From positions 64,770 through 128,769 of the forward strand of contig JAUJOY010000001.1 in the NCBI GenBank assembly GCA_030447385.1: a stretch of DNA of 64,000 bases, given 5' to 3'. The DNA is from Mycobacteriales bacterium. Lineage in GTDB: Bacteria > Actinomycetota > Actinomycetes > Mycobacteriales > SCTD01. Of this stretch, positions 33,706 to 51,638 are shown piece by piece (the first letter of the stretch is position 1; the number at the start of each line of letters is the position of its first letter). The translations under genes and the position numbers were made by a program. The notes beneath the pieces were generated by a model. That model was not told the origin of the DNA and ran no database searches. It worked only from the letters and a program-made list of their open reading frames with translations.

Positions 33706-35198
33706 GTGCTCCTGACGCTGTCCACGACTTCCCGTCCCGCGACAGACCTTGGCTTCCTGCTGCACAAGAACCCTGCGCGGCCGCAGAGCACCAGCGTCTC
33801 CACCGGTACCGCCCACGTCTTCTACCCGGAGGCGAGTGAGGACCGCTGCACCGCAGCACTGCTGCTCGAGGTCGACCCGATCGCGCTGGTGCCTGGGAGC
33901 AGGGGGCCGAGCAGCGAGGCCTTCAGCCTCGGGCAGTACGTCAACGACCGCCCGTACGCAGCATCCAGCCTGCTTGCGGTGGCGCTCGGCAAGGTGTTCG
34001 CGAGCGCACGCCGGGGCGTCAGCAAGGAGCGGCCTGAGCTCGTCGGGCAGGCCCTCCCGCTGGAGATCCACCTTCCGGCGCTGTCGTGCCGCGGTGGCCC
34101 GGACATGGCACGGCGCTTCTTCACGCCGCTCGGCTGGGAGGTCGAGGCGACGCCTGTCCCGCTCGACGGGACGATGCCGGAATGGGGCGACTCGCGCTAC
34201 GTCGACCTGCGGCTGACCGGAATGCAGCGCGTGGCCGACGCGATCAACCACCTGTACGTCGGGCTGCCCGTGCTCGACGACGCCAAGCACTACTGGGTCA
34301 GCGACGAGGAGATCGACAAGCTGCTGCGCGCCGGGGCGGGTTGGCTTGCCGACCACCCGGACCGTGAGCTGATCACCCGGCGCTACCTTGCCCATCAGGG
34401 CTACCTGTCCCGTCAGGCGATCGCCCGGCTGGCCGAGGTCGACGACACCGAGCCCGACGCGCTGGATGACGCGACAGCGGCGAGCACGTCCGGGACGAGC
34501 CCGGGCGGTCACCACGAGCTGGACGCGACAGCGGCCGTGGGGCCGGTGCCGCTGGTCGTGCAGCGCCACCACGCCGTGCTGACGGCTCTCCGCGCCTGCG
34601 GCGCCTCCCGGGTGATCGACCTGGGGTGCGGGAGCGGGGCGCTGCTCCCGGCACTGCTCGCCGAGCCTGCGTTCACCGACATCGTCGGCGTCGACGTCTC
34701 CCACCGGGCCCTGGAGGAGGCGGCGCGCCGGCTCCGGCTGGAGCGGATGCCCGACCGCCAGCGCACCCGGCTCACGCTGCTGCAGGCGCCCTGACCTACA
34801 TCGACAGTCGGCTCGCCGGTTACGACGCGGCGGTGCTGATGGAGGTCATCGAGCACCTCGATCCGGATCGGCTGCCGGCTCTGGAGCAGGCCGTCTTCGC
34901 CGCCGCCGCACCCGCGACGGTGATCGTGACGACGCCCAACATCGAGCACAACGTCCGCTACGAGCACCTGCCGGCGGGGACGTTCCGCCACCGGGACCAC
35001 CGCTTCGAGTGGACCCGCAGGCAGTTCGAGAAGTGGGCGCAGGGCCTTGCCGAGCGACACGGCTACGCGGTGCGACTCCTGCCAGTGGGTGCTGATGACC
35101 CTGAGGTGGGACCGCCGACGCAGATGGCGGTGTTCCGCCGGAACGCCGACCAGGCGGAGACACACGTGGGCCTGCCACCCGCCGGTGCCGGCGCATGA
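33706..35198 (+). CDS. hen1: Hen1 RNA-3' 2'-O-methyltransferase (one frameshift)
   Basis: Bacterial Hen1, which methylates the 2'-OH at the 3' end of cleaved RNA before Pnkp religates it. The N-terminal bacterial domain starts LLTLSTTSRPATDLGFLLHK, giving GTG 33706 as best start (ATG 33682 is possible), and continues with YVNDRPYAASSLLAVALGK and RYVDLRLTG. The methyltransferase begins near residue 303 (VIDLGCGSGALLPALL). At about 34788 the frame breaks; one extra G in CAGGCGCC restores LTLLQ-GALTYIDSRL. The C-terminal part has the Mn-binding MEVIEHLDPDRLPALE and TPNIEHNVRYEHL and ends in the HRFEWTRRQFEKWA motif. The stop overlaps the pnkp start by four bases, the standard RNA-repair operon. 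Confidence 0.92.
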
Positions 35199-36658
35199 CC
35201 GGTGCCGACGAGGACACGGGCCAGGACGGGCCACTCGAGATCTGCATCCCGGACCTCTCGCTGGTCGTGCTGATCGGGATCTCGGGTGCGGGCAAGAGCA
35301 CCTTCGCGCGTACGCACTTCCGCCCGGCTCAGGTGCTCTCGAGCGACGTGTGCCGCGCTCTGGTCGCCGACGACGAGAACGAACAGGCCGCAACACCGGA
35401 TGCGTTCGAGGTCCTCCACTACATCGCCGCAAAGCGCCTTCGCCGCGGACACCTCGCCGTCGTCGATGCGACCAACGTCAAGCGCGAGGACCGCGCAGAG
35501 CTCGTGCAGATGGCGCGGGACCACGACGTCCTGCCGGTGGCCGTCGTCCTCGACGTGCCCGAGTCCGTAGCCCTCGAGCGCAACGCCTCCCGCCCGGACC
35601 GTGACATGCCATCGAGCGTCATCCGCCGTCAGCGCGCGGAGCTGCGCCGGGGCCTTCGCGGCTTGAGCCGGGAGGGCTTTCGAAAGGTCCACGTCCTGTC
35701 CGGCTCGCAGCAGATCGAGTCGGTGCGCATCCGCTACGAGAAGCAGTACAACGACCGGCGCGAGGACAGCGGCCCGTTCGACGTCGTCGGCGACGTGCAC
35801 GGCTGCCTTTTCGAGCTGGAGCTGCTGCTCACCCGGCTCGGCTACCAGCTGCGGCGGGACGACCAGGGGCGGGCGGTGGACGCCGAGCATCCGCAGGGCC
35901 GGCGCGCGGTCTTCGTCGGCGACCTCGTCGACCGGGGGCCTGACAGCCCTGGCGTGCTGCGCCTGGTGATGGGGATGGTCGAGTCGGCGCACGCGCTGTG
36001 CGTACCTGGAAACCATGAGAACAAGCTGGTGAAGGCGCTGCGCGGGCGCAACGTCAGGATCAGCCACGGATTGGAGTTCACCCTCGCGCAGCTGCAGGCC
36101 GAGGACGAGGGCTTCCGCAAGCAGGTGGAGGAGTTCTGCTACGGCCTGGTCAGCCACTACGTGCTCGACGGCGGCAGCCTCGTGGTGGCCCACGCCGGGC
36201 TCAAGGAGTCCTTGCAGGGCCGATCCAGCGGACGGGTGCGCGACTTCGCGCTGTACGGCGAGACGACCGGTGAGACCGACGAGTTCGGTCTGCCGGTCCG
36301 CTACCCGTGGGCGCGGGAGTACCGAGGTCGGGCGACCGTGCTGTACGGGCACACCCCCGTGCCCGCGCCGGAGTGGGTCAACAACACGCTGTGCCTGGAC
36401 ACCGGCTGCGTGTTCGGGGGCCACCTGACGGCGTTGCGCTATCCCGAGCGCGAGCTCGTCAGCGTCCCCGCCGCTCGGACCCACTACGAGCCGGCCCGGC
36501 CGTTCCTGCCGGCGGAAGCCGCGCCACTACAGGCCCCTGACCAGCGGGAGCCCGAGCTGCTCGACGTGAACGACGTGCTCGGCAAGCGGGGAATCGAGAC
36601 CCGGCTCGCCGGGCGCGTGACGGTGCGCGCGGAGAACGCCGCGGCGGCGATCGAGTGA
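35195..36658 (+). CDS. pnkp: Pnkp RNA-repair enzyme: kinase and phosphatase domains
   Basis: First two domains of polynucleotide kinase-phosphatase. The 5'-kinase P-loop GISGAGKSTFA is near residue 28, followed by SSDVCRALVADDENEQAA and VDATNVKREDR. The calcineurin-type 2',3'-phosphatase has FDVVGDVHGC near 197, VFVGDLVDRGPDSPG near 240, VPGNHENKLVKAL near 272 and VLYGHTPVP near 383. ATG 35195 overlaps the hen1 stop. The enzyme repairs RNA cut by ribotoxins. The frame ends at 36658 with ENAAAAIE, exactly where single-chain Pnkp proteins continue into the ligase domain (VMSRFA). One extra G in GAGTGATG would fuse the two reading frames to about 863 residues, the usual Pnkp length (the Clostridium thermocellum enzyme is about 870). 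Confidence 0.93.
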   Translation: MTGADEDTGQDGPLEICIPDLSLVVLIGISGAGKSTFARTHFRPAQVLSSDVCRALVADDENEQAATPDAFEVLHYIAAKRLRRGHLAVVDATNVKREDRAELVQMARDHDVLPVAVVLDVPESVALERNASRPDRDMPSSVIRRQRAELRRGLRGLSREGFRKVHVLSGSQQIESVRIRYEKQYNDRREDSGPFDVVGDVHGCLFELELLLTRLGYQLRRDDQGRAVDAEHPQGRRAVFVGDLVDRGPDSPGVLRLVMGMVESAHALCVPGNHENKLVKALRGRNVRISHGLEFTLAQLQAEDEGFRKQVEEFCYGLVSHYVLDGGSLVVAHAGLKESLQGRSSGRVRDFALYGETTGETDEFGLPVRYPWAREYRGRATVLYGHTPVPAPEWVNNTLCLDTGCVFGGHLTALRYPERELVSVPAARTHYEPARPFLPAEAAPLQAPDQREPELLDVNDVLGKRGIETRLAGRVTVRAENAAAAIE

Positions 36659-37788
36659 TGAGCCGGTTCGCGATCCCGCCGCAGCAGCTGCTGTACCTGC
36701 CGCCGACCATGAGCCCGTCGGCGACGTCGGCGCTGCCCGGCCTTCTCGAGCACCCCGCCGAGGCGTTCGCCTACTACCGCAGCGAGGGCATCTCCCATCT
36801 CGTGTGTCAGGAGAAGCACATGGGGTCCCGGGCTGTCGCGCTGGTGCGTCGCAGCGACATCACCGGCGGGCCGGAGCGGCCCGCGTCCGAGCGGGGCGCG
36901 TTCTACACGCGTACCGGACGGGCGTTCTTCAGCGACCTCACGGTCACGACCGCCTTCCTCAGCCGGCTGGCCTCCGCCGCGAGCGACGCAGGCCTGTTCG
37001 AAGACCTGTCGAGCGACTGGTTGCTGCTCGACGCGGAACTGCTGCCGTGGTCGGCGAAGGCGGGTGACCTGATCCGCAACCAGTACGCCGCGGTCGGCGC
37101 GGCTGCGCGCGCCGCACTCCCGGCAGCCGTCGCAGCCCTGGAGCGCGCGGTGGACCGCGGGCTGGATGTCGGGGAGCTGCTGAGCGTGCAGCGGAAGCGC
37201 GAAAGAAGGGCCCGCGCGTTCACCGACGCCTACCGCCGCTACTGCTGGCCCACGGCGGGCATGGACGGTGTCGCGTTGGCCCCCTTCCAGCTCCTGGCCG
37301 CTGCCGGCGCGACGTTCCACGACCGGGAGCACGCCTGGCACCTGTCGATCGTCGACCGGCTCGCCGCCGCCGCGCCCGAGCTGATCCGGTGCACGGAGCA
37401 CCGATACGTCGACGTGAGCGACCCGGCCAGCGAGGCAGCGGCCACCGAGTGGTGGACGGCGAGCACGCAGGCCGGCGGCGAGGGAATGGTGGTCAAGCCT
37501 GCCGGCAACCTCAGCCGGACCCGGCGCGGCCTGGTGCAGCCCGGGCTCAAGGTGCGCGGCCGGGAGTACCTGCGCATCATCTACGGCCCCGACTACACCA
37601 GCACCGAGAACCTCGAGCGGCTGCGCTCGCGCAACCTCGGGCGCAAGCGCGGCCTGGCTCAGCGCGAGTACGCCCTCGGGCTCGAGGGACTGGAGCGCGC
37701 GGCCGCGGGTGAGCCGCTGTGGCGGGTGCACGAGTGCGTGTTCGCGGTGCTCGCGCTGGAATCCGAGCCGGTGGATCCGCGCCTGTGA
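36658..37788 (+). CDS. pnkp: Pnkp RNA-repair enzyme: ligase domain
   Basis: The adenylyltransferase (ligase) domain of Pnkp. It starts MSRFAIPPQQLLYLPPTMSP, a sequence normally internal to Pnkp. Motif I EKHMGSRAVALV near residue 52 contains the AMP-accepting Lys. Further ligase motifs are FFSDLTVTTAF, WLLLDAELLPWSAKA, GGEGMVVKP near 274 and the Lys-containing VQPGLKVRGREYLRIIYGP. The C-terminal helical cap RSRNLGRKRGLAQREYALGL is also present. The ATG at 36658 overlaps the preceding stop (TGATG); GTG 36655 is an alternative. Either the ligase is a separate subunit here or a one-base deletion in the sequence has split a single gene. The second is favoured because similar deletions recur across the window. 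Confidence 0.92.
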   Translation: MSRFAIPPQQLLYLPPTMSPSATSALPGLLEHPAEAFAYYRSEGISHLVCQEKHMGSRAVALVRRSDITGGPERPASERGAFYTRTGRAFFSDLTVTTAFLSRLASAASDAGLFEDLSSDWLLLDAELLPWSAKAGDLIRNQYAAVGAAARAALPAAVAALERAVDRGLDVGELLSVQRKRERRARAFTDAYRRYCWPTAGMDGVALAPFQLLAAAGATFHDREHAWHLSIVDRLAAAAPELIRCTEHRYVDVSDPASEAAATEWWTASTQAGGEGMVVKPAGNLSRTRRGLVQPGLKVRGREYLRIIYGPDYTSTENLERLRSRNLGRKRGLAQREYALGLEGLERAAAGEPLWRVHECVFAVLALESEPVDPRL

Positions 37789-38587: not shown

Positions 38588-40549
38588 TCACAGCTGCTCG
38601 GCCGTCACCACCAGACGAAGATGCACATCGGCCCAGGCATCGAGCACTCGACGCGGATCCTGCGCAGCAAGCGCCGGACCCAGCCCGGCCAGCGCCGCCG
38701 CCGCGGTGGACAGGCCCACCCGGCTCAGACCGTCGACAGCCCGCGCCGTCCGCGCGGCCCAGGACGCCGGGAGGCGCCGTGAACCGTGATGGGCCACAGC
38801 GGCACTGGACTGCAGGGCCTCGTCGACCGCCGCGCGAAGGGGGTCCCCCTCCGCGGTGACGCTCCCGACCGCGATCCCCTCCGCCGTCGGCGAGGCGAGG
38901 TCGGGGACGAGGACGCGGCCGCCGACGGCGACGGCGGTCGGTTCCAGCACCAGCCTTCCGGACTCCCGACGCAGATGACCGGCCAGGTTGCGCACCGGTC
39001 CGAGCTTCCCGCTCAGCACCTGGTGCAGAAGGTCGACGGCGCCGGGCGCGGCCGCCGAGTGACGGATGCGCACGACGAGCTGTCCCGCCGGAGCCCGGAC
39101 CGTGGCGCGCAGCTCCTGCGCGCCAGGGGACCAGAGCACGTCAGCAACGTCGCGGACGACCACGGCGCGCAGGTCGTACGCCGCCACCCGCGGCCGGACC
39201 ACCGACGGCGGCTGGGTCGTCAGCTGCGCGGAGGCCTCCTCCAGGTCCCGCAGCAGCAGTGCCGCAGGCAGCGCCTCCCAGTGGCCGCCGGACGGAGCCA
39301 CCGTCGTGCGGGCGACGCGGGATGCCGCGATGTGAAGGGTGCGGTTGGCGGCTCGCACCGCGCTCTCGGTCACGACCTCGGCGGCCGCGACGACGCTCAG
39401 CCGGTGCCCCGCCGTGCTCGTACGCAGCACGCGCTCGAGGTCGGGCAGCGTGCCCTCGTCGCCCGGCAGGAACTCCCTTCGCAGCACCAGCACCGTCGCC
39501 GACTCCGGGTGCGCCAGGTAGACCTCGAGCTGCCGCCTCTCCTCGGTGCCGCTCAGCCGCGCCCCGAGCCCGGTCAGGCGCGCGAGGCGCATCGGCGTCT
39601 TGCTGCTCTCCTCCGTGCCCAGCACGGCGGAGCGCGGCGAGGATCCCCCTTCGGAGCATCGGCCGCGGGCCACGAGCTCGGCGAGCAGGTACGCGGTCCG
39701 ACGTGTCGAGTACGCGGTCGTACGGCTCCGGTAGGCCTGCACCGACTCCACCAGGTCGTCCACCACGTCGACCGGCCAGCGCAGGTTGCGCGCGTCCATC
39801 GTCCGGCGCGCCAGAGCCAAGCCGGCCAGAGTTGCGTCGTCGGCGCAGGTGACGCCCTCCGCGAGCAGGTCTGCGACGACGTCCTGGGCCGTGGCCAGCG
39901 CCTCGGCCGGGGAGCCGGCCGCTGCGCTGCCGACCTGGACCTCCACGAGCGGTGCGTCCGGCGCGACCGAGTTGGCCACCCGCCAGGCCCACACGGCGAG
40001 CGCCACCGCGTCGGGGCGCGCGCCGCGCGCCGCATCCGCGCGCGCGTAGCCCAGCTCGCCGGCGACGAGGAACCGCACGGTCACGGAGGAGAGCTCGACA
40101 GTGGGCACCGGGTCGCCGTCGGACGGGCGCCGCACCCTCGCCGCGTAGCCCGCCCGGCGCACCTTGGCAGCGGCGGCTATGGCGCGGGTTCCGAGGTGGC
40201 TCTCGAGCTGCTCGTCGGTGAAGTCGGCCGGCGAGGCCGGCGGGGTCCCGGTGGTCGCCGCCGGGGCAGCGGCGGCAGGCGGCACCGAGCGCGCCGCGAT
40301 CGCGAGCATCACCCGGTGCCGGCACACCCCGGAGGACGGGCAGCTGCACGAGGAGTCCTCCAGCGTGGCGCGCGCGGGCAGTGAGACCACGGTGCCGTCG
40401 ACCCACGTGCCGGTGAGCGTGCCGTCGGCGCCCTCCGCGAGCGCCGGTCCGTCGCCGGCCTCCACCTCCCGGAGCGCCCGCTTGACCAGGCCCCGGTTGG
40501 CGAGCGCGGCCAACGAGTCGTCCGACAGCGCCACGAGGTCGGCGCGCAC
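38588..40549 (-). CDS. yehQ: SWIM zinc-finger protein (YehQ-like)
   Basis: A 653-residue cytosolic protein. The SWIM zinc finger CSCPSSGVCRHRV at residues 68-80 gives the CxCx5CxH ligands C68, C70, C76 and H78. The remaining 550 residues are alpha-beta, without a known catalytic motif. SWIM domains bind DNA or proteins and often accompany ATPase machines. The start GTG 40549 follows directly on the stop of the vWA gene at 40550. It is the last gene of a five-gene operon whose order matches E. coli yehI-L-M-P-Q, where the terminal gene yehQ also encodes a SWIM protein. Symbol given by this correspondence. Confidence 0.85.
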   Translation of the reverse strand: MRADLVALSDDSLAALANRGLVKRALREVEAGDGPALAEGADGTLTGTWVDGTVVSLPARATLEDSSCSCPSSGVCRHRVMLAIAARSVPPAAAAPAATTGTPPASPADFTDEQLESHLGTRAIAAAAKVRRAGYAARVRRPSDGDPVPTVELSSVTVRFLVAGELGYARADAARGARPDAVALAVWAWRVANSVAPDAPLVEVQVGSAAAGSPAEALATAQDVVADLLAEGVTCADDATLAGLALARRTMDARNLRWPVDVVDDLVESVQAYRSRTTAYSTRRTAYLLAELVARGRCSEGGSSPRSAVLGTEESSKTPMRLARLTGLGARLSGTEERRQLEVYLAHPESATVLVLRREFLPGDEGTLPDLERVLRTSTAGHRLSVVAAAEVVTESAVRAANRTLHIAASRVARTTVAPSGGHWEALPAALLLRDLEEASAQLTTQPPSVVRPRVAAYDLRAVVVRDVADVLWSPGAQELRATVRAPAGQLVVRIRHSAAAPGAVDLLHQVLSGKLGPVRNLAGHLRRESGRLVLEPTAVAVGGRVLVPDLASPTAEGIAVGSVTAEGDPLRAAVDEALQSSAAVAHHGSRRLPASWAARTARAVDGLSRVGLSTAAAALAGLGPALAAQDPRRVLDAWADVHLRLVVTAEQL

Positions 40550-41659
40550 TCAGCCGCCCACCGTCGACGCGACGAAGTCGACGAGCTCCGACGGGGTCAT
40601 CGCGCCGACCTTCACGCCGAGGTCGGCGCAGCGCTGCGCGAGCTCCCGGTCGTACGCGGGCGCAGCCTCCTCGTCGAGGGCTGCCAGGCCCAGCACCGTC
40701 GTTCCCTGCTCGACCAGACCGCGCAGGGTGCGCAGCAACCACGCCGGGTCGCCGCCCTCGAAGAAGTCCGTCACCAGGGCGAAGATCGTGCGGCGGGGCG
40801 TCTGGACGAGGTCGGCGGCATAGGCCACCGCCTTGGCGATGTCGGTGCCGCCACCGAGCTGCGTGCGCATCAGCAGCTCGACCGGGTCGTCCACGTCGGA
40901 CGTGAGGTCGACGACCTCGGTGTCGAAGACCACCAGGTGCGAGGTCACTCCCGGCAGCCCCCACAGGACCGACGCGGTGACGGCGGAGTGGATGACCGAG
41001 CCGACCATCGACCCGGACTGGTCGACCACGAGGATCACCTGCCACCTGTCGATCTCGCGGCGCTGCCGGGACACGAAGTAGGGCGTCTGGACGAGGACCC
41101 GCTGCAGCTCCGGCGAGTAGTGCTGGAGGTTGGCCGCCACCGTCCGCCGCGCGTCGAACGCCGCCGCGTGCCGCAGCATCGACCGGCGCCGCGACCTGGT
41201 CCCGCTGAACGCCTGGCGGACCTCGGTCGCGAGCGCCTCCTGCAGCCTGCGCACGACCTCAGCGACCAGGCGGCGGGCCAGAGCAAGGACCTCGGGGTTC
41301 ATGAGGTGCTTGGTGCGCAGGACCGCGCGCAGCAGCGCAGCATTGGGCTCGATGCGCTGGAGCACAGCGGGATCGGTCACGATCTCGGTGATGTCGTAGC
41401 GCTCCACCGCATCGCGCTCCAGGCGCTCGACGACGCTGCGCGGGAAGAGCGTGTGTATCTCGTCGAGCCAGTCGACCGGGTGAAGCTGTGACCCGCCCTG
41501 CCCTCCCCGCCGCTCCCCGCGCCGGGCCTGCTCCTCGTCCCGCCCGTACAGCCAGTCGAGGGCGGCGTCCTGACGCGCGGCGGCCTCACCCAGCCCGCCG
41601 AGGCTCCCCTCCGCAGCATCGCCGAGCACCAGCCGCCACCGCTCGAGGTCCGCGCTCAC
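40550..41659 (-). CDS. yehP: vWA-domain protein (YehP-like)
   Basis: A 369-residue protein. The N-terminal 180 residues are helical (PVDWLDEIHTLFPRSVVERL, LMNPEVLALARRLVAEVV). The C-terminal half is a von Willebrand factor A domain with an intact MIDAS site: VVDQSGSM with D203, S205 and S207, the Thr in QLGGGTDIAKAV, and the Asp in ALVTDFFEGGD. Such vWA proteins act as metal-dependent adaptors that link MoxR-type AAA ATPases to their clients. Its ATG overlaps the DUF5682 stop by four bases (41656-41659), so translation is coupled. The matching MoxR ATPase gene lies two genes upstream in this operon. Confidence 0.9.
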   Translation of the reverse strand: MSADLERWRLVLGDAAEGSLGGLGEAAARQDAALDWLYGRDEEQARRGERRGGQGGSQLHPVDWLDEIHTLFPRSVVERLERDAVERYDITEIVTDPAVLQRIEPNAALLRAVLRTKHLMNPEVLALARRLVAEVVRRLQEALATEVRQAFSGTRSRRRSMLRHAAAFDARRTVAANLQHYSPELQRVLVQTPYFVSRQRREIDRWQVILVVDQSGSMVGSVIHSAVTASVLWGLPGVTSHLVVFDTEVVDLTSDVDDPVELLMRTQLGGGTDIAKAVAYAADLVQTPRRTIFALVTDFFEGGDPAWLLRTLRGLVEQGTTVLGLAALDEEAAPAYDRELAQRCADLGVKVGAMTPSELVDFVASTVGG

Positions 41660-43914
41660 GACGGCTCCCCGGCGAGCAGGTGCTCCCGCACGAGCAGGTC
41701 CTCGACGCGGTGCTCCACGGCCCTGGCGGTGGCGACCAGCACCGGGTCGACGGAGGCGCGCAGCAGGGACGACGCCGAACCACGTACGCCCCTTCGGAGC
41801 AGCGCCAGGGCGGCGACCTGCTCGCGCTCACGGGGCGGGAACCAGGCGAACGCCTGACGCAGGGCGGGCAGAGCCTCGAGGAAGTCCTCGTCGAGCAGGC
41901 GGGTGAGCGTGGCGTCGACAGCCGCGAGCACCCCGTCCTCGGCGTCGTCGAGCAGGACCTCCTCGCGCGCGACCGCGAACAGCCCGGCCAGCCAGTCGCC
42001 GAGCCGGGTGGGCCTGGTCGCCGACCGGGCCGCGGCGGCTGCCTCTCCACCGGTGCCGCACTCGAGCGACCACAGCAGGCCCACACAGCCGCCGCGCAGG
42101 TCGGCGGGCCGGCTCGGGTCGTCGGCCAGGCGCCGGGCGAGGTCCACGACGGCGGTGCGGTCGATGCCCACGCCGGCGTCCAGGTGCCGCGCCGCGTCGC
42201 GCAGCCCGACGAGAGCGACCTGCCGCGCCGGCGCAGCGGGGGCCGCCTGCCCGCTCTCGCCCTCGAGGAGCCAGAGCGTACGGCTGGCGCTCGCTGCCAC
42301 CAGGGCGGGCAGCCCCTGCGCCGCGTCGGCTCGCCGCAGCAGGCGGGTGGCGGTGATCAGCAGCGAGCCCATCCCGTCGAGCACGCGCACCTGGCGCACC
42401 GCCGCGGCGACGGCATCGACCACCTGCCGCGTGGCTGCGTCCAGCCCGCAGCGGACGCTCAGCTCGAGGACCTGCCCGAGCGCTCCCGGGCTTCCGCCGG
42501 CCTCCTCGGCCAGCTCGGCCAGCCTGGCACCCGCGGCCTCGGCCAGGGTCGCGCCGTATGCACCTGCCTCGACGATCAGCGCATGCCGGTGCTCGTGCGG
42601 GTGGCACTCCCACGACTCCTGCAGACCGTCGCGGCTGGTCCCGCGCAGCGTCCATCCCGGCAGGGCCAGGACCGACAGCCGGTGCAGGACCCGGCTGCGC
42701 TCCCGCTGCCGGTCCTCGGTGAGCAGGACGGTCACCTCCCCCTGCTCGGGGATCGCGTGCCGGTCGAGCTCGGCCGCCACATCGTGCAGGAGCGGCGGTG
42801 CGGGCGTGTCCGGATGCAGCCGGCCGACCGAGTCGCCCGACAGGGCCGCCACCATCTCGACGATCACCGGATCGGTCCCGACCCGGAGCCGCCCGCGACC
42901 GGTCCACGGCAGCGGGATCTGCAGCGCGTCGCTGACCAGTGCCGAGACAAGGCCGTCGAGGACGTCGGTACGAGCGGGACTGTCGTGGCCGCGCAGCCGC
43001 GCAAGGCCCGCCGTCAGCGCGCGCGCAGCGATCAGGTCGGCGGTGGACACGAGCTGCTTGCGCCTGCGCAGGCGACCGACCACCCATCGCGTCACCCGCT
43101 CCGCGGCCTCAGCGGGACCGTGCTCCCAGAGGTCCTGGTAGTAGCCGGGCGAGGGCATCCCACTGGCGTAGCCGTCGAAGGCGTCGAGGCGGCGGAAGGA
43201 GAACGGCACGACGAAGCTGCCGCCCACCCGGTCCGGCGGCAGGACGGGCGTCTCGGGCCAGGTCGTGGGGCCCGGCTGCGCCGCCAGCCGCAGCAGGGCG
43301 GAGCGGTGGAAGCCGCCGCAGACCCCCACCACGTGCCGGTCGCCGGCGTCCGCGACGGCCGCGCGCAGCCACGACGCCATGCAGCCCTCCCGCGCGGCGT
43401 CACCCTCGCTGGTGTCGAGGTCCGCACGGACCAGGTCGAAGTAGGCCGTCAGGCGCTCCTCCAGATCGCTGTCGTCGCGCGTCTCGACCATGTGGTCCCA
43501 CAGCACATCGGTGTTGTCGACGTCGAACTCGCGGCAGAGCCGCTCCTGCACCTCGGTGTAGCGCCGCTCCGCATCGGAGTAGCGGTTCTCCCGCTCGCCG
43601 AAGGCCGGGTCCCAGGCGGGCAGGTCCATGAAGCGCACCTGCGCCCCCGAGGCCCGCCCGGCGGTCATCGCCACATACTCCGGCGAGTGCCCGCAGAACG
43701 GGCTCCAGGACCGGTGCGTGCCCTCCTCGTCCCGTGCGCTCGAGAAGACCGCGATCGGGAGCTCGTGCCCCAGCAGCAGCTCATCGAGGCGGTCGTTCAT
43801 GTCGGCGGGCCCCTCGATGAGCACGTGCACCGGCTGCAGCCTGTCGATCGTGTGCTGGACGAGCCGCGCGCAGGCCGGGCTGTGGTGCCGGACGCCGATC
43901 AGGGTCAGGGGCAC
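41656..43914 (-). CDS. yehM: DUF5682 protein (YehM-like)
   Basis: A 752-residue cytosolic protein of family DUF5682. The N-terminal part begins LTLIGVRHHSPACARLVQH, then VHVLIEGPADMNDRLDELL and later HVVGVCGGFHRSALLRL. The spacing of a GxxHxS-type motif, an xxIEGPxD motif and a GGFH motif resembles the EreA/ChaN/TraB hydrolase fold, which I infer rather than know. The C-terminal 450 residues are helical repeats (LARRLADDPSRPADLRGG, REREQVAALALLRRGVRG). It starts at ATG 43914, six bases after the MoxR gene, and overlaps the vWA gene. E. coli yehM has the same domain in the same operon position. Confidence 0.87.
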   Translation of the reverse strand: MPLTLIGVRHHSPACARLVQHTIDRLQPVHVLIEGPADMNDRLDELLLGHELPIAVFSSARDEEGTHRSWSPFCGHSPEYVAMTAGRASGAQVRFMDLPAWDPAFGERENRYSDAERRYTEVQERLCREFDVDNTDVLWDHMVETRDDSDLEERLTAYFDLVRADLDTSEGDAAREGCMASWLRAAVADAGDRHVVGVCGGFHRSALLRLAAQPGPTTWPETPVLPPDRVGGSFVVPFSFRRLDAFDGYASGMPSPGYYQDLWEHGPAEAAERVTRWVVGRLRRRKQLVSTADLIAARALTAGLARLRGHDSPARTDVLDGLVSALVSDALQIPLPWTGRGRLRVGTDPVIVEMVAALSGDSVGRLHPDTPAPPLLHDVAAELDRHAIPEQGEVTVLLTEDRQRERSRVLHRLSVLALPGWTLRGTSRDGLQESWECHPHEHRHALIVEAGAYGATLAEAAGARLAELAEEAGGSPGALGQVLELSVRCGLDAATRQVVDAVAAAVRQVRVLDGMGSLLITATRLLRRADAAQGLPALVAASASRTLWLLEGESGQAAPAAPARQVALVGLRDAARHLDAGVGIDRTAVVDLARRLADDPSRPADLRGGCVGLLWSLECGTGGEAAAAARSATRPTRLGDWLAGLFAVAREEVLLDDAEDGVLAAVDATLTRLLDEDFLEALPALRQAFAWFPPREREQVAALALLRRGVRGSASSLLRASVDPVLVATARAVEHRVEDLLVREHLLAGEPS

Positions 43915-43920
43915 AGCGGC

Positions 43921-45046
43921 TCAGCCGGGCAGCTGGTGACGTGCGTCGTGCACCGACTTCCAGTGCCTGCCGCGCTTGCGCGGCACCACCTGCTCGAGGT
44001 AGCGGCGCAGCCGGGCCAGATCCTCCGGGCTGTCCTTGGCGGCCGTGCCCGCCAGGCACTCGACGAGATCGCCTGCTGTACCAGCCTCTCCGCGTAGGAA
44101 CCACCCGCGCACGCCGATGGCGTGGGCCACCGCCACCGCCTCAGCCGTGCTCATCACCGAGCTCATGCGGTCGAGCGCGTCGCCGCTCTCGGTCACTCCG
44201 TTGCGCAGCTCGCGGAAGGTGGTGACAAGGACCTCGAGCACCTCCCGCCGCGCAGCCACCTGCACTCCCGACCGGGCGAGCAGCCGGGCCGACTCGGGTC
44301 TCGACCAGTGCCAGCTCGGTGTCGAGGTCGGCGATCGGGAAGACGGTCTCGAAGTTGAAGCGCCGTTTCAGGGCGGCGCTCATCTCGTTGACGCCGCGGT
44401 CCCGCGTGTTGGCCGTGGCGATGACGTTGAAGCCCTCCCTCGCCAGCACCATGCCGGCGGGCCCGGGCAGCTCCGGGATGGACAGCACGCGGTCGGAGAG
44501 CAGTGACAGCAGGGAGTCCTGGACCTCGGGTGCGCACCGGGTCAGCTCCTCGAAGCGCACCACCTTGCCTTCCGACATCCCACGGAGCATCGGCGCCGGC
44601 ACCAGCGAGCGGTCCGACGGCCCTTCGGCGATGAGCAGCGCGTAGTTCCAGCCGTACTTGATCTGGTCCTCGGTGGTCGCCGCGCCGCCCTGGATGGTGA
44701 GCATCGACGTACCGCTCACGGCGACAGCGATCAACTCCGACAGCAGCGACTTCGCGGTCCCCGGGTCGCCGGTCAGCAAGAGCCCCCGTCCGGTCGCCAG
44801 GGTCACCAGCGCACGGTCGACGAGGGACGGGTCGCCGACGAACTTGCGCTCGAGCCCAGCCTTGCGGTCGCCGACGACGAACCGCCGGGCCGCGGTCAGG
44901 CTGAGCGCCCAGCCCGGCGGCCGGGGGTCCCGGTCGGCCGCGCGCAGCCGCGCGAGCTCCTCGGCGTAGCGGAGCTCGGCCGGCGGCCGCTGCGCAGCGT
45001 GCGGCGAGGCATCGGGAGGTGGCGCTGCTGTCATGTCAGCCGGCAA
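43921..45046 (-). CDS. yehL: MoxR-type AAA ATPase (YehL-like), one frameshift
   Basis: An AAA+ chaperone-like ATPase. Walker A is [15 protein letters not shown] (GDPGTAKS at residues 93-100), Walker [11 protein letters not shown] near 165, sensor 1 [13 protein letters not shown] near 210 and the Arg-finger region [15 protein letters not shown] near 225. Near 44285 the frame changes; one extra G in ACCCGAGTCGG joins LVETR to [21 protein letters not shown], and the helical lid continues to the stop at 43921 ([33 protein letters not shown]). MoxR ATPases use ATP to remodel target proteins with a vWA partner. Its start overlaps the DUF4132 gene by 11 bases. Length and order match E. coli yehL. 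Confidence 0.9.
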
Positions 45047-48000
45047 CTCTCGTCAGGTCGCGCAGGATCTCGGACGCCGTGATGTCGTCGAGAACCGACA
45101 GCGGCAGCGAAGTGCCGGACCAGTGGTCGTCCTCCGCCTTCAGCACGTGCACGGCGGTCAGCTTCTGCTCCGGCCATTCGTCCGGCATGCCCACGATTAT
45201 CCCTGGATCCAGGACGACCACCGCCTTCCGGCCGCCCGGCAGCAGCTTCTCGAGCGTGCCCTGCACGCCACCGTCCTCCGCCATCCCCCGCTCCCACCCC
45301 CGGTGGGCCAGCCCGTAGATCCGCTTGGTCTCCACGGGTCTCGTGGCGAACCGGGTGAGGACGCAGGCGCTGCGCTCGGCCTCGGTCAGGTGCACGACCT
45401 CACGGCCGAGCTGCGGGAACGGCTGCAGGATCTCGTAGTCCGCGAAGACCTCCGTCCAGGTGCCGAGGTCGCCGCCGAGGTGCAACGGGTGCGCGATACC
45501 CACGAGTGCTCCCTCGGCGAGCGAGACCTCCGCATCGTCCCGGTCGGCGAGCGTGCGGTCCTCGGCGACGCGGAAGCTGAGCTGCACCCTGCCGTCCGCG
45601 TCGACGGTGACCCACACCAGCCGCCGCGCCAGGTGCCAGAGCAGCGGGTGCTCCACGAAGTGCTGCCGCTGCTCGGCTGCTGACCACCGCCGCTGCGCGG
45701 CCATGGCGTGCTCGAAGCGGCGCAGCTGGTCGGCGGCGACCGTACGCACGTCCTTCTTCAACGCGGAGAACAGCGCGTACGCCGCGGGAGCCCGCTCGGG
45801 GTCGTCCTTCGCGCTCGGCTTCGGCAGCGCGGGGCGGCGCCGGCCGTCCTCCTCGACGAAGGGCTTCAGCGACTCGTCGAAGCCGACGACGAACCGGCGC
45901 GGGCCGTAGTCGAGGACCTTGCGCCCGTCGGCGTCCAGGCCCATGTCGGGGACCAGCCGGTCGGCGAGCTGCTCGGGCGTCAGACCGAGCTCCTCGGCCA
46001 CGGTCCCGATGAGCCCGCCCGCGCGCTCGCGCAGGGGCTTGGACGCGGCGCGCAGCGAGATCCGGTGCAGATGCATCAGGGCGACGTCGGTGCCGATCGC
46101 AGCCAGCACGTCCAGACCCGCGGCAGCCTTGGCGGTGCCGTTCTCCTTCGGCCAGGCCACCACGAGCGGGGAGAGCCGCCGGGCGGTCTCGTCGTCCCCG
46201 ACCAGCCCGAGCGCGTGCAGGGCCCAGCTGTCCTTCGCCGGCTCACCGGCCAGGCGCCAGGTCTCGACGGCGGCCCACGCCATCTCCGCCACGCAGGTGC
46301 GATCGAGCGCCGGCAGGGCCTGCTCCAGCCCGGCGTAGGTCTCTCCCGGCTCGCACACCGCCAGGCACGTGAGCAGCCGGCGGACCGCGTCCACGGGCAG
46401 GCGCGCGGTCCGGTCGGCCAGCAGGACCGGCGGCAGGCCGTGCAGGTCGAGCCACGTCGGGAGCGTCGGCACCCTCGCGGGAAGCACGTCGACGGGGTCG
46501 ACCTGGAGCATCGCGGCGATGCCGGCCGAGGCCTCGGGACCGTAGGACGCGGCTGCCGCCTCCACGGGGCGACGGTGCCGGGCGGCGACGACGCGAAGCG
46601 CCCGCTCGGCGGCCCGCCGCTCCTTGCCGGGCTTGCCAGGGCCACGGGGACCAGCCCGAGAGCCGCGGCCTCAGGGTGCCGCGCGAGCCACGCCAGCGCG
46701 GTCGGGCGCACCGACTTCGCCCGCACCAGCCAGTCGGCCATGGCGACGGCGACCTCCGCCGAACGCACCGGCAGCAGGGCGGCGGCACGGGAGGGCTTGG
46801 CCCGGGCCAGGTCCAGCGCGAGCGGGACGGCGTCCAGCTCGTGCGTGGCGAGCAGGCCCTGCACGTGACTGGCGTCGCAGTAGCTGGTGCGGGCGTCCAC
46901 CTTCGACAGGTAGCGACGGCCGACGTTGCGGGGTGCGGCCGCCAGCGTCATGACGAAGCTCCAGCTCTGCTTGCTCAGCGCCTGGTCCCAGCTCTCGCGC
47001 GCGGCCATCCAGTGCTGTCGCTGCACCCGCCAGCTGTCCTGCTCGCCGGGCGCCCAGACGAGGGACGCCGTCGACGGCGCGGCCAGGCCGGGCACGACGA
47101 CCGGACGGCCCGCCGAGCGCTTCCTGTCCCACGGAGCCTCGACCAGGATCGGCGGCAGCTGGGCGGGTGTCGCCACCGGAGAGCCGTCCTCGGCAGGTAG
47201 GGCCTTCTCCAGCGCTGCTCGCGCCGCCGGGCCCAGACCGGCTGTGACGGCGCGGGTCTCGGGATGCGCGGACAGGTGTGCACGCAGCAGGCTTGCGCAG
47301 GTGCGGGCGGAGCTCCCGCTGCCGGCTGCCTGCTCGGCCAGCAGCCGGGTGGCGCGGAAGGGCTGCAGCTCCTTGGCCGAGAGCACCCGCTCGGGCACCC
47401 CCTTGCGGTCCGCCCGCGAGAGCAGGGCACGAAAAGCCCCGTCGTCCCGGAAGCCCGCGACCAGACCGATCAACCGGCGGGCGAGCTCCGCATCGGCGTC
47501 ATCCAGCAGGGCGAGCAGCAGGGGGGCGGCAGGAGGGCCCACGTGCGCGGCGAGGCTGGTGGCCGCCGCCGGCAGCTGGGAAAGCAGCCACGGGGATGCG
47601 GTCGAGAGGATCACCTCGGCGTCGTCCGCGGAGCGGCAGCTCGACAGGAGGAGGACCCAGAGCTGGTCCGCTCCGCTGCCCGAGGGAAGGCCACCGGCCA
47701 GCGCCGCGGACACCCAGTCCTGCCTGGTGGGCGCGAGCACCGCGGCCCGGAGCAGACCGAGCGGGCTGGTCGTGGTGTCCTCGAGCGCCGCCACGGCCCG
47801 CTCGTACGTGCTGTCGTCGCTCGCCGCGAGCAGCGCGCGCAGGCGCGTGAGGGCGGGCAGCGCATTGGACCCGTAGTACTGGCGAGTGGTGAGCCGCTGG
47901 ACGCCGGGTGAGGATCCGTGCGACTGGTGCTGCAGGCCGGCCAGCTCGCCGGGGATCTGGACGACGAGCTCGACGGGATGCTGCGTCCACCACAGGCTCA

Positions 48001-48736
48001 GCAGCGCGAGCCCGACCCGCTCGACGTCGCTCCAGTCGCAGTCCGCGAGCATGGCCGCCGCGACCACGGCCTCTCCCAGTGGAGTCGGCGTCACCTCGAC
48101 CGCCCGCCGCAGAAGGCGCTTCTCCTCGCCCAGCGCGAGGATCCCGGCCCGCCGGAGGTCCTCGGGGGTCGAGCGGTTGCTGATCCGGGCCCGTGCCCGC
48201 TCGCGCCGGTCCGCGAGCAGCGTCTGCGCGGCAGCGGTGTCCAGCGCAGGCGCGGACACCGGGTCCAGACCGCGAATGGGGAGGACCTCCCGGCGCCAGG
48301 AGGCCGGCGGCGTCCACTCGTCCTCGTCCGGGATCTCGACCGGCTGCGACACGGGTGGCGCCGGCTGCTGCTGCGGCTCATGGGCCGGCGCAGCTACCGG
48401 CCCGACCTCGACCCCCGCTGCCTTCGCGACCGGTGCGGGAGCCGACCCCTTCGCAGCTGCCGGTGCGGGAGCCGACTCCTTCGCGGCTGCAGGTGCGGGG
48501 GCTGACCCCGGTGCGGGTGCCGGCGGCGCGACGCCCTCCTCCGCGTACCCCTTCCGCACCTTCTCCGAGATCAGCTTCGCCGCGGACGCGCGGGCGGCGT
48601 CCTCGGTGAGCAGGTCCTTGGTCTTCGTCTGACCGTTCGTGCCGATCCGGCCGAAGTGCACGGTCACCTCGGTGCCGGACTGCTCGATCTCCCAGAACTT
48701 CGACGACGTGCCCTCTTGCAGCGTGAAGCGAGGCAT
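45036..48736 (-). CDS. yehI: WGR and DUF4132 protein (YehI-like), one frameshift
   Basis: A giant protein of about 1230 residues. It begins with a WGR domain ([37 protein letters not shown]) like that of PARP enzymes, which binds nucleic acid or protein. ATG 48736 is chosen because the domain starts there; GTG 48745 is also in frame. An Ala/Pro linker with decapeptide repeats (residues about 75-115) leads into HEAT-like helical repeats and DUF4132. Near 46600 the frame breaks; adding one G in CCCGGCAAGG joins ALASP to [15 protein letters not shown], and DUF4132 continues to the stop ([44 protein letters not shown]). In E. coli yehI (once molR) has the same architecture and heads the same gene set. 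Function unknown. Confidence 0.9.
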
Positions 48737-48878
48737 GTCGACCACAATGCCGGACTGCGCTCTCCACCGGAGCGGATTCGACGGTCATGTACGCCCGCCG
48801 CCACCTGCCGGACCACCCCTGGCAGATGGGCAAGGCGGGCCTTGCACAGGCCCGCTGCGCACGGGTCGGAAGATCGCT

Positions 48879-50567
48879 ATGGTCCGCCCCGTGGGCCTCT
48901 CGCTGCAGCCGAAGCACCTCGTGCGCTACCGGGACATCGCGCGGCTGCTCATCAAGTACGGCCGCTCCGACCTCGTGAACGACCTCGACATCGAAGGACT
49001 GGACGCCGAGGAATCCGGCTCGCCCCGGTGCGAGGACGCCGTGCAGCTCGCCGCCGACCTCGAGCGGCTCGGACCCACGTTCATCAAGCTCGGGCAGCTC
49101 CTGTCGACGCGGGTCGACCTGCTGCCTGAGCCCTACACCGACGCGCTGGCGCGACTGCAGGACGACGTCGCGCCCTTCCCGTTCGAGGACGTGCAGAGGA
49201 TCGTCGCGGACGAGCTCGGGGTGGGGGTGTCGCATGCCTTTTCGTCCTTCGACCCGGAGCCCCTCGCCGCTGCCTCGCTGGCGCAGGTGCACCGCGCCGT
49301 CCTGCACAGCGGCCGGGAGGTGGTCGTCAAGGTGCAGCGCCCCGGAATCCGCAGGCAGATCGCCGAGGACATGGCGGCGCTTCACGAGCTCGCGCAGTTC
49401 GCGGACAAGCACACCGACCTCGGGCGGCGGTTCGGCCTCAGCGAGCTGCTCGAGCACTTCCGCAAGGCACTGGTGGCCGAGCTCGACTACACCCGCGAAG
49501 CCGCCCACCTCACGACGCTCGCCGAGATCGTGCAGCCCTGGCCGCGGCTCGTGGTGCCGCGGCACGTGCCCGACTACAGCACCGGCCGGGTGCTGACCAT
49601 GGACTTCATCCCGGGGCGAAAGGTCACTGATGTGACGGCTGTCGGCCGTACCGATCTTGACGCTCGCCCGCTCGTAGACGACCTCTTCCGCGCCTACCTG
49701 CAGCAGATCCTCGGGGAGGGCTTCTTCCACGCCGATCCCCATCCGGGCAACGTCCTGCTCACCCCGGACCGCCGGCTCGCACTGATCGACCTCGGCATGG
49801 TGGGCCGGCTCTCCAACAGCGCCAGGGACTGCATCGTCAAGCTGCTGCTCGCGGTCAGCGACGGTGACGGCGAGGAGGCCGCGACGGCCCTCGCGCAGCT
49901 CGGCTCGCAGCAGGCGGACTTCGACCGCGACACCTTCCGCGCCGACATGGACGACCTCGTCCACCGCAGTGTCGAGCTGGGCAGCGCCCTGCAGGCCGGG
50001 GCGGTGGTCCTCGACATGACGCGGATCGCGAGCCGCTGCGGGCTGCGGCCGGCACCGGAGCTGGCCCTGGTCGGCAAGGCGCTGCTGAACCTGGACCAGG
50101 TGGCGAAGCACCTGGACCCGGGGTTTGCCCCCACCGAGGCCATCCGCCGCCACACCGCAGCCATCCTCCAGACGAGGATGACGACCTCGTCCGGAGGGCT
50201 GCTCGGAGCAGCCATGGAAGCCCGGGACTTCACCGTGCAGCTCCCCGGCCGGGTCAACAAGGTGATGGACGCCGTCGCGGAGGGGAAGTTCCAGGTCAAG
50301 ATCGACGCGATCGACCAGCCGCAGCTGCACGCCCTCCTGCAGCGGCTCGTCAACCGGCTGGCCACCGGCCTCGTTCTCGCCTCCCTCGTGGTGGGCGCAG
50401 CGCTGATGATGCAGATACCGACGGAGTCCCGGATCCTGGGATATCCCAGCATCGCGGTGACCTGCTTCGCGCTGGCGGCCGGCGGCGGGCTCGCCCTGCT
50501 GATCTCGGTGCTCCGATCCGACCGACGCGAGGCTGCCGAGGGGCGGCGGCCGAGGAAGCGGCGCTAG
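48879..50567 (+). CDS. UbiB/ABC1 atypical kinase-like membrane protein
   Basis: A 562-residue protein of the UbiB/ABC1/ADCK family. Hallmarks are the KxGQ motif LGPTFIKLGQLLSTR near residue 65, the Ala-rich nucleotide loop PLAAASLAQVHRA, the lysine in EVVVKVQRPGIRRQ, the catalytic HADPHPGNVLLTPDRR and the metal-binding LALIDLGMVGRL. Two C-terminal helices (GLVLASLVVGAALMM and SIAVTCFALAAGGGLALLISV) anchor it. Homologues support isoprenoid-quinone lipid metabolism through ATPase activity. In menaquinone-using actinomycetes the role is less clear. ATG 48879 has GGAAG six bases upstream. It is divergent from the WGR gene. Confidence 0.92.
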   Translation: MVRPVGLSLQPKHLVRYRDIARLLIKYGRSDLVNDLDIEGLDAEESGSPRCEDAVQLAADLERLGPTFIKLGQLLSTRVDLLPEPYTDALARLQDDVAPFPFEDVQRIVADELGVGVSHAFSSFDPEPLAAASLAQVHRAVLHSGREVVVKVQRPGIRRQIAEDMAALHELAQFADKHTDLGRRFGLSELLEHFRKALVAELDYTREAAHLTTLAEIVQPWPRLVVPRHVPDYSTGRVLTMDFIPGRKVTDVTAVGRTDLDARPLVDDLFRAYLQQILGEGFFHADPHPGNVLLTPDRRLALIDLGMVGRLSNSARDCIVKLLLAVSDGDGEEAATALAQLGSQQADFDRDTFRADMDDLVHRSVELGSALQAGAVVLDMTRIASRCGLRPAPELALVGKALLNLDQVAKHLDPGFAPTEAIRRHTAAILQTRMTTSSGGLLGAAMEARDFTVQLPGRVNKVMDAVAEGKFQVKIDAIDQPQLHALLQRLVNRLATGLVLASLVVGAALMMQIPTESRILGYPSIAVTCFALAAGGGLALLISVLRSDRREAAEGRRPRKRR

Positions 50568-50585: not shown

Positions 50586-51638
50586 ATGTCCGGAGCAGGG
50601 CATCATGGGCCGGTGGGCGTGCGCGAGGAACGCTGCCGCGCGCAGCTGCTCTCCGGACCCCCAGCAGCCTCCCCGGATCGGGTGGCCGAGCGACTGCTGG
50701 CCGTGCAGGCCCAGGATCCGCGCGGCGCCCGACTCGCCGTCCGCGCCCGCTCCGCCGGCCTGGTCGCGCAGGACGTCGACCGCGCCCTGACGCAGGACCG
50801 CAGCCTCGTCGTCAGCTGGCTGAACCGCGGCACGCTGCACCTGGTGCGCAGCGCGGACCTGCCGCTGCTGCACGCGCTGACCACCCCGCAGCTGCACACG
50901 GGGAACACCCGGCGACGGCGCGAGGAGGGTGTCTCACCGGAGCAGGCGGAGCGGGGTACGCGCGTGGTCGCCGATGCGCTGGCGGACGGCCCGCGTACCC
51001 GTCCCGCGCTGCGCGAGCTGCTGTGCGCCGCCGGCGTCCCGGTCGCCGGGCAGGCACTGGCCCACGTGCTGATGCGCACCTGCCTGCTCGGGCTGGCGGT
51101 CCGGGGGCCGGTGATCGGGAGCGACCACGCCTACGTGCATGTGCGGGACTGGCTGGGTGCCGCGCTCGAGGCCGTGCCGGACCGGGGCGGGGCGCTGACC
51201 GAGCTCGCCCGCCGCTACCTGGTCGGGCACCAGCCCGCGTCCGCCCGCGACCTCGCTCGGTGGGCCGGGCTCTCCCTGGGTGATGCGCGTCGCGGGCTCA
51301 GCGGGATCCGCGGCCTGCACGACCGCGGGAACGAGCTGGTGGCGCTGACTGCGGCGGAGCCGGCCGCACCGCCGCCGCCGCGGCTGCTCGGCCCGTTCGA
51401 CCCGCTGCTGCTGGGCTGGGCCGACCGCGAGCCGGTCGTCGGGGAGCACCGCGAGCTCGTCACCAGCAACGGCATCTTCCGGCCGTTCGCCCTCGTGCAC
51501 GGCCGCGCGGCCGCGACGTGGTCGTTGGGCGATCTCACCGTGGTCCCCTTCGCCCCGATCGACCCGGCGGTTGCCGCGGCACTCGAGGTGGAGGCCGCCG
51601 ACGTGCATCGCTTCCTCGGGTCGGCCAGATACCGCTGA
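50586..51638 (+). CDS. winged-helix DNA-binding protein (HTH_42 family)
   Basis: A 350-residue protein of the winged-helix HTH_42 family, related to the YcaQ/AlkX DNA glycosylases that unhook interstrand cross-links. Family features: PDRVAERLLAVQAQDPRGA near residue 30, LVVSWLNRGTLHLVRSADLP near 75, the winged-helix RPALRELLCAAGVPVAGQAL, ARRYLVGHQPASARDLARWAGLSLGDARRGL, and LLGPFDPLLLGWADRE near 265. The Gln-rich catalytic QxQ/QxD motif of YcaQ is represented by VQAQD. Glycosylase activity is inferred. It follows the UbiB-like gene by 18 bases. GTG 50613 is an alternative start because homology begins there. Confidence 0.85.
   Translation: MSGAGHHGPVGVREERCRAQLLSGPPAASPDRVAERLLAVQAQDPRGARLAVRARSAGLVAQDVDRALTQDRSLVVSWLNRGTLHLVRSADLPLLHALTTPQLHTGNTRRRREEGVSPEQAERGTRVVADALADGPRTRPALRELLCAAGVPVAGQALAHVLMRTCLLGLAVRGPVIGSDHAYVHVRDWLGAALEAVPDRGGALTELARRYLVGHQPASARDLARWAGLSLGDARRGLSGIRGLHDRGNELVALTAAEPAAPPPPRLLGPFDPLLLGWADREPVVGEHRELVTSNGIFRPFALVHGRAAATWSLGDLTVVPFAPIDPAVAAALEVEAADVHRFLGSARYR

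Follow-up and report, generated by a model that had tools for sequence, protein, structure and literature searches.

The YehL group of MoxR AAA+ ATPases and its neighbours were reportedly described by Snider and Houry in 2006. YehL is an already named subfamily of these ATPases (PMC3893208, as far as the text was available). Pairs of a MoxR ATPase and a von Willebrand factor type A (vWA) protein are thought to capture a peptide by the vWA protein and to remodel it by ATP hydrolysis, according to the part of PMC7159879 accessible to us. Here we analyse a 64,000-nucleotide stretch from a Mycobacteriales bacterium (GenBank assembly GCA_030447385.1, contig JAUJOY010000001.1, positions 64,770 to 128,769), referred to as the window, which carries such a pair within a larger operon. 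All five families of this operon lie on the minus strand between 38588 and 48745, in the order DUF4132-MoxR-DUF5682-vWA-SWIM. The first-pass annotation had placed these families there: Pfam profiles matched all of them at this place, strand and order, and profile searches of the window and E. coli products assigned none of the five to an unrelated family.

We consider it about an even chance that the operon family encodes one DNA-damage-induced protein-remodelling machine, composed of a MoxR/vWA chaperone, a TraB-like hydrolase and WGR and SWIM recognition parts. A MoxR-vWA pair that is joined by a WGR protein, a TraB-like hydrolase and promoters of the damage type points to a damage-induced remodelling or cutting machine. 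Ahead of the operons of relatives stand damage-response elements of three unrelated types: RecA-NDp/PafBC-type motifs in actinomycetes, a LexA-type box in E. coli and a DdrO-type site in Deinococcus. The MoxR ATPase, the vWA adaptor and DUF5682 form a core that stays together, to which SWIM and either WGR-DUF4132 or DUF5691 are added. In the proposed mechanism WGR-DUF4132, often present in several tandem copies, and SWIM would recognise either damaged DNA itself or a complex assembled on it, the vWA protein would bind a target peptide via its metal-ion-dependent adhesion site (MIDAS) and a MoxR hexamer would remodel the target using ATP. DUF5682, which combines a helical-repeat scaffold with an N-domain showing the residue pattern of TIKI-type (TraB/GumN) metallo-hydrolases, would then cleave it. 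A single ATP-driven MoxR-vWA machine, as initially proposed, is thus still the best reading, although DUF5691 stands in for DUF4132 in a sister operon; recognition of nucleic acid by WGR and SWIM is kept as a presumed step, with the correction that the WGR protein is not YehI.

Gene order in actinomycetes and in the E. coli yeh cluster

The window products were compared with their E. coli counterparts by BLASTP. Identity was 69% over 230 amino acids (aa) for MoxR against YehL, the sole subfamily compared, 55% for the vWA protein against YehP, 37% for the DUF5682 protein, and 26% over 575 aa (E 8e-40) for the SWIM protein against YehQ. The Walker A motif of MoxR (GDPGTAKS, residue 93), the MIDAS motif of the vWA protein (DQSGS at residue 213, GGGTD at 269) and the CxCx5CxH zinc motif of the SWIM protein (residue 68) are intact. 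None of the six window open reading frames (ORFs) matched an NCBIfam model above the family cut-off. For the DUF4132 model Foldseek gave no match at E ≤ 0.001, and a search of solved structures by sequence returned nothing for DUF4132 below E 0.3. Structure searches with the N-terminal half of DUF4132 returned helical-repeat matches only, while the last 110 residues gave a middling match to 2r5x (Z 7.9). Since only helical-repeat and middling matches were found among the listed families, no fold is claimed for DUF4132.

In E. coli the cluster products belong to the same Pfam families as the window products, and the MG1655 order is yehF(WGR)-yehH(pseudogene)-yehI(DUF4132)-yehK-yehL-yehM-yehP-yehQ. 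No Pfam WGR match was found in YehI. The E. coli WGR protein is the product of the gene preceding yehI, which MG1655 annotation gives as yehF plus the pseudogene yehH, i.e. as broken (L002:1475-8912); another E. coli record has one intact WGR-DUF4132 protein of 1262 residues at the same place. Window DUF4132 is 43% identical to this intact protein versus 36% to YehI, and by this comparison the window WGR-DUF4132 gene corresponds to the tandem neighbour of yehI, not to yehI itself. The suggested correspondence with yehI-yehL-yehM-yehP-yehQ therefore holds for the families and for the MoxR-DUF5682-vWA-SWIM order, and fails for YehI without WGR and for the presence of yehK and an extra DUF4132 gene.

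A genome scan with a DUF5682 alignment gave at least 532 relatives, of which the best 80, all actinobacteria by title, were used. MoxR-DUF5682-vWA-SWIM occur in this order on one strand in 79 of the 80 loci; the remaining one (L094) begins just before DUF5682, cut by the contig end. WGR-DUF4132 lies directly before MoxR in 73 loci. Among the seven exceptions L094 and L111 are cut by their contigs, and L119, L120, L129, L130 and L131 are without WGR-DUF4132 at this place (L129 has a DUF4132 match 8 kb upstream). Clustering in other actinomycetes, on which the operon proposal had been made to depend, was thus found in the survey. MoxR and vWA genes were present in all 54 DUF5682 neighbourhoods surveyed, in one case (L082) with the vWA gene 7 kb off on the opposite strand. 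The idea of an order retained across phyla applies to actinomycetes and E. coli, and an Iodobacter plasmid keeps the window order as well, but on the alphaproteobacterial plasmids of Sinorhizobium and Allorhizobium (L204, L205) the genes are rearranged to AAA-DUF5682-DUF4132-vWA-SWIM.

DUF5682 proteins about 30% identical to that of the window were found in separate MoxR-DUF5682-vWA operons, which we call the sister type. In five such loci DUF5691 precedes MoxR in all five and a SWIM match is present in four; a weak DUF4132 match was seen in one sister-type locus (L069). DUF5691 and DUF4132 show no detectable homology. In a third arrangement vWA precedes MoxR, together with DUF5682 (L035-L038 and L088, DUF5682 being below the BLAST limit in L035 and L036).

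A TraB-type residue pattern in DUF5682

The predicted structure of the DUF5682 protein (mean predicted local distance difference test score 87.9) consists of an alpha/beta N-domain, approximately residues 1-245, and a helical-repeat C-domain. All 58 sequences compared share G7, H10, E34, R175, G200 and H203; in a wider set of 30 sequences five of these residues stayed invariant and H203 nearly so. The hallmark of the TraB/GumN family is a pair of GX2H motifs together with a conserved E and R. DUF5682 shows precisely these elements in the order GX2H, E, R, GX2H. An alignment of 86 DUF5682 N-domains was compared by hhalign with a home-made alignment of 10 TraB/GumN sequences, with 60 column-shuffled controls: the score was 26.7 and the control maximum 16.7. 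With the accuracy filter off, the path connects residues 1-224 with YbaP 32-264 and keeps all four motifs (GX2H, E, R, GX2H) in register. Few TraB relatives could be located in the phylum, with one in 1 of 60 genomes and in 1 of 13, the same one (L207); its sequence is without the first GX2H motif and was retained in the 10-row alignment.

Several results weigh against this assignment. The hhalign probability was only 6.5% (P 0.0056), the default alignment spans residues 174-206 only, global mode did not align DUF5682 to TraB/GumN (3 columns), and a narrower DUF5682 alignment was not significant (P 0.06). No TraB chain came out of sequence searches of the PDB, which returned nothing for DUF5682 below E 0.3 either, and Foldseek listed no DUF5682 match at E ≤ 0.001. 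Pfam at E ≤ 0.01 listed only DUF5682 for the protein, with no TraB match above the curated cut-off. Neutral to the assignment is the best VIA match to the N-domain (residues 1-216), the chain 7w5z_E (Z 9.7, root-mean-square deviation 4.5, 182 aligned residues). Taking both sides together, we regard a TraB/GumN-type N-domain as likely, and DUF5682 is predicted from the TraB-type motifs to be a candidate metallo-hydrolase. The description of DUF5682 as the enzyme of the operon accordingly gains some support from the motifs.

Putative damage-response elements ahead of related operons

The LexA/RecA-independent damage response has the RecA-NDp motif as its promoter, and PafBC acts through this motif, as stated in the accessible parts of PMC6789036 and PMC8223512. 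For 60 of the 80 loci enough upstream sequence was available to scan 400 bases before the first recognised gene for the motif, with spacers of 7-9 allowed. The consensus letters used, TTGTCRGTG-N8-TANNNT, are reportedly those of Gamulin et al. in 2004. As controls, 20 shuffles per locus and 2971 other 400-base windows were scanned. A motif with at least 10 of 12 matches was found in 33 of 60 loci (shuffle mean 1.4; 1.1% of other windows), at least 11 of 12 in 19 loci (0.1; 0.07%) and 12 of 12 in nine (none in either control). The spacer was 8 in 33/33 motif loci, and the 19 best loci are spread over nine genera, six of the loci being from Streptomyces. Because the loci are related, binomial significance values are overstated.

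Four of the loci without DUF4132 directly before MoxR (L119, L120, L130 and L131) have the motif, with 10 to 12 of 12 matches, before MoxR instead. In 9 of 28 sister-operon loci (L025, with too short a contig, was left out) it lies 2.6-3.3 kb ahead of MoxR, and DUF5691 and SWIM occupy that stretch in the loci checked. As a check, the consensus letters gave exact matches in 11 of 12 chosen genomes. Six of thirty ORFs downstream of exact motifs encode RecQ, a methyladenine glycosylase, SRAP, a WGR protein, a GyrB-like protein and ribosomal S6; these six were hand-picked after reading the translations and are therefore biased, the remaining 24 being unclassified. A stand-alone WGR protein with a beta-propeller lies directly behind an exact RecA-NDp-type motif at L184:1501-2986, and WGR proteins outside the operon may belong to the same regulon.

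Actinobacterial LexA boxes were also considered as a shared element and set aside: matches with up to 2 mismatches are scattered in the relatives at no fixed place. The exception is Dactylosporangium fulvum (L097:5758-5854), in which the operon is preceded by a RecA-NDp-type motif matching at 12 of 12 and by an exact LexA box, TCGAACATATGTTCGA; double damage control is possible for this operon. In a further locus (L072), about 12.7 kb past the moxR start in operon orientation, a RecA-NDp-type motif matching at 12 of 12 and a LexA box matching at 11 of 12 stand 11 bases apart.

In both E. coli records a LexA-type box, AACTGGATAAAATTACAGGG, starts 27 bases before the WGR-DUF4132 start. This gene is presumably molR. 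We equate the two because the available text of PMC8533742 ascribes a WGR domain to MolR and counts it within the LexA regulon; molR is also among the LexA-regulated genes in the portion of PMC11039860 at hand. In D. radiodurans, DRA0166 (DUF4132) and DR2173 (WGR) rise after mitomycin C in the wild type and do not in an irrE mutant, again according to the accessible text of PMC8533742. In D. taeanensis the sister operon lies on a plasmid, and a DdrO-type site begins 35 bases upstream of the first operon gene; the site matches 13 of 15 positions of the DdrO consensus as far as this is printed in the passage available. The sole other DdrO-type site of at least 12 in this 17-kb stretch is 12 kb away. 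The statement that no function had been established overlooked these printed clues to regulation of molR and of the Deinococcus genes, and is right in that the cluster is still unexplained.

Against damage control speak the following observations. In the actinomycetes 27 of 60 relatives score below 10 of 12 for the motif, and the 28 sister loci contain 14 further matches of at least 10 of 12 that do not fall into the 2.5-3.5 kb slot. Across the E. coli region the LexA core has near-matches at chance level (10 vs 8.0), so that the E. coli site rests on its position and on the published list. No convincing LexA box was seen before the Iodobacter, Sinorhizobium and Allorhizobium plasmid operons. 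The region upstream of the window operon contains neither an actinobacterial LexA box nor a RecA-NDp-type motif, for which the best score was 8 of 12, and the window genome contains no exact copy of the motif. Damage control is therefore not claimed for the window copy, while for the family it is indicated by the upstream elements of relatives. Two adjacent WYL-domain genes are present in the window genome and its recA has a LexA box (11 of 12); the exact motif occurs, one copy each, in 4 of 9 genomes of the genus, the window genome being among the nine. From the literature, in each case as far as the text was accessible, a first search pointed to a lack of conservation of the M. smegmatis motif in S. 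venezuelae (PMC9380542), and MoxR1 and MoxR2 are among the proteins lowered in an M. smegmatis pafBC deletion (PMC5656591). Beyond this MoxR1/MoxR2 line no mention of MoxR, DUF4132, SWIM or other family names was found in the portions of the PafBC/RecA-NDp literature available. Finally, damage induction does not prove a repair role.

Alternative readings and comparison with known systems

The damage-induced remodelling machine could also be framed more narrowly, as a chaperone-protease at damaged DNA, which we hold to be quite unlikely: WGR-DUF4132 and SWIM would find broken or protein-blocked DNA, the vWA/MoxR ring would pull on the protein and DUF5682 would cut it. If true, bacteria would have a machine similar in kind to those that degrade DNA-protein crosslinks or stalled complexes; it would be common in E. 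coli, and the LexA, PafBC and DdrO regulons would each have recruited it independently.

The main rival is an antiviral or suicide system, in which a sensor would trigger a MoxR/vWA switch that releases an effector, and damage induction would report attack. We judge it unlikely, although it is the strongest of the alternatives. MoxR-vWA pairs have indeed been proposed as thresholding switches in conflict systems in the available text of PMC7159879; the same text, as far as examined, does not mention WGR, SWIM, DUF4132 or YehL, and the Pfam bpMoxR profile stays below cut-off in the window (21.6 vs 27 bits). Sensor-like copies in tandem speak for a conflict role, at least two same-strand WGR/DUF4132 copies being present in 32 of the 80 loci, as does the patchy distribution of DUF5682, of which a match of either type was found in 63 of 298 genomes of the window's order. 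Some copies are on plasmid records (33, several of them chromosome-sized), and type I restriction genes lie alongside the Iodobacter operon. The wide presence in E. coli argues the other way: a search limited to the start region of the WGR-DUF4132 first gene found it in 5365 of 5426 complete genomes, with at least 80% of the query covered in 5349 and every place chromosomal, unlike a mobile defence gene. In the PADLOC defence library the operon products matched only the WGR stretch of one model, and one scan of viral contigs gave no confirmed match; a single phage record gave a weak one.

The second alternative concerns the window copy itself, whose features are collected in the following table.

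Features of the operon in the window (Pfam match given as E value unless stated)
Feature	Coordinates	Strand	Evidence
SWIM zinc-finger protein, YehQ counterpart	38588..40549	-	Pfam SWIM 6.2e-4, 19.7 bits vs cut-off 19.6
vWA (CoxE-like) protein, YehP counterpart	40550..41659	-	Pfam VWA_CoxE 3.2e-49
DUF5682 protein, YehM counterpart	41656..43914	-	Pfam DUF5682 6.8e-94
MoxR (probably YehL-type) AAA+ ATPase	43921..45046 including homologous C-terminus; open frame 44141-45046	-	Pfam AAA_5 7.9e-35
DUF4132 ORF, second part of WGR-DUF4132 gene	45036..46565	-	Pfam DUF4132 2.3e-56
WGR ORF, first part of WGR-DUF4132 gene	46076..48745	-	Pfam WGR 1.5e-15, residues 8-70
Intergenic region upstream of operon	48746..48881		without RecA-NDp-type motif or actinobacterial LexA box

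Two of the five genes, WGR-DUF4132 and MoxR, are frame-broken as sequenced. WGR and DUF4132 lie on separate ORFs, each in its own frame, that overlap at 46076-46565; a codon-usage scan puts the frame switch near 46636, and beyond about 46.64 kb the WGR ORF continues without homology. By the same scan the MoxR ORF departs from the coding signal near 44296, ahead of its stop at 44141, and the homologous C-terminus lies in another frame that stops at 43921. In relatives WGR and DUF4132 share a single open frame (L034, L049, L050, L053, L055) and MoxR is a single ORF of about 380 aa (L093, L111). Since the scan flagged four further candidate breaks in the same 64 kb (6517, 23767, 58189 and 58578), sequencing errors may be responsible for both breaks, which we consider a fair suspicion. 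Programmed frameshifting was set aside in view of the single open frames in relatives and the other candidate breaks in the window. The gaps of -11, 6, -4 and 0 bases between the genes in the first-pass annotation apply only if both frame breaks are read through, not to the ORFs as sequenced; likewise, its five back-to-back genes are right in families and strand, with WGR-DUF4132 and MoxR each split across frames.

The breaks could also mean that the window copy is a decaying pseudogene operon from which no function can be read. The missing damage promoter would fit such decay, and the window operon type was found in none of 8 congeners searched (one, G003, has the sister type). DUF5682, vWA and SWIM are nevertheless intact with all motif residues, and the other candidate breaks, together with a neighbouring Hen1 ORF that stops inside its methyltransferase domain, suggest indel errors; we hold decay to be decidedly unlikely.

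Just past the SWIM end, a bacterial Hen1/Pnkp RNA-repair cassette (Hen1_L, kinase-phosphatase, Pnkp ligase) is encoded at 33544-37788 on the plus strand; the stop of its Hen1 ORF, at 34791, is another possible frame break. On the other side, the second gene past the operon start encodes an AlkZ-like DNA glycosylase (50586-51638, plus strand) and comes after an ABC1/UbiB kinase gene; it is followed by a subtilase (Peptidase_S8; 51648-53129, minus strand) with a run of NPFRA repeats ahead of the protease domain. Hen1/Pnkp, DUF72, ABC1, AlkZ and S8 were considered as parts of the system and left out, because no match to them was present beside the operon in 140 other loci of more than 6 kb.

Least likely of the alternatives is a dedicated maturation chaperone for one metalloenzyme or cofactor complex, like CoxD, NorQ or RavA-ViaA: MoxR proteins of several subfamilies mature enzymes (PMC3893208, text available in part), the vWA protein is in a CoxE-like family and the name MolR points to molybdate, but the damage-type promoters would be left unexplained, and moeA and moeB were not differentially expressed on DdrO depletion in the accessible part of PMC8533742.

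With these alternatives weighed, the damage-induced remodelling machine would account for a cluster that is still unexplained in spite of a first gene whose start region is near-universal in E. coli. In each of three phyla a damage regulator of a different, unrelated kind appears to control relatives of this machine, and the core protein DUF5682 looks like a hydrolase with named candidate catalytic residues. In the K-12 reference the first gene of the cluster is broken, and phenotypes may therefore be under-reported in K-12 deletion libraries. In the literature searched, which lay largely outside subscription journals, no paper on DUF5682 was found, and among the papers found only PMC8533742 addresses DUF4132 function in its available text. 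In the accessible portions of papers on yehL/M/P/Q and on MoxR with vWA, DUF4132, SWIM or WGR, including PMC10910872, the present reading was not found in print.

We finally compared the operon with the systems closest to it. The MoxR-vWA ternary conflict systems of Kaur et al. 2020, as described in the available text of PMC7159879, likewise combine a MoxR ATPase, a vWA protein and further components; the window genes differ in having no Pfam VMAP or bpX match (E ≤ 0.01) and a sub-threshold bpMoxR match. TraB/GumN/PrgY (TIKI) proteins share GX2H, E, R and GX2H with DUF5682 in the same order and register, whereas DUF5682 joins the domain to a helical-repeat scaffold, is encoded in a MoxR operon and shows sequence similarity near the detection limit. 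The SWIM-DUF5691-MoxR-DUF5682-vWA operons of actinomycetes and Deinococcus have the MoxR/DUF5682/vWA core and SWIM in common with the window operon, and in some of them damage-type promoters are found; they differ by DUF5691 in place of DUF4132 and by the low identity of their DUF5682 proteins. From the YehL subfamily, for which the accessible part of PMC3893208 names no client, the window MoxR is set apart by no distinguishing feature found: it is close to YehL in sequence and has a vWA gene nearby. The E. coli yeh cluster itself shares the five families and MoxR-DUF5682-vWA-SWIM with DUF4132 upstream. It differs from the window operon by yehK and by a second DUF4132 gene, yehI, without WGR, and from the actinomycete relatives by a LexA-type box in place of the RecA-NDp-type motif.

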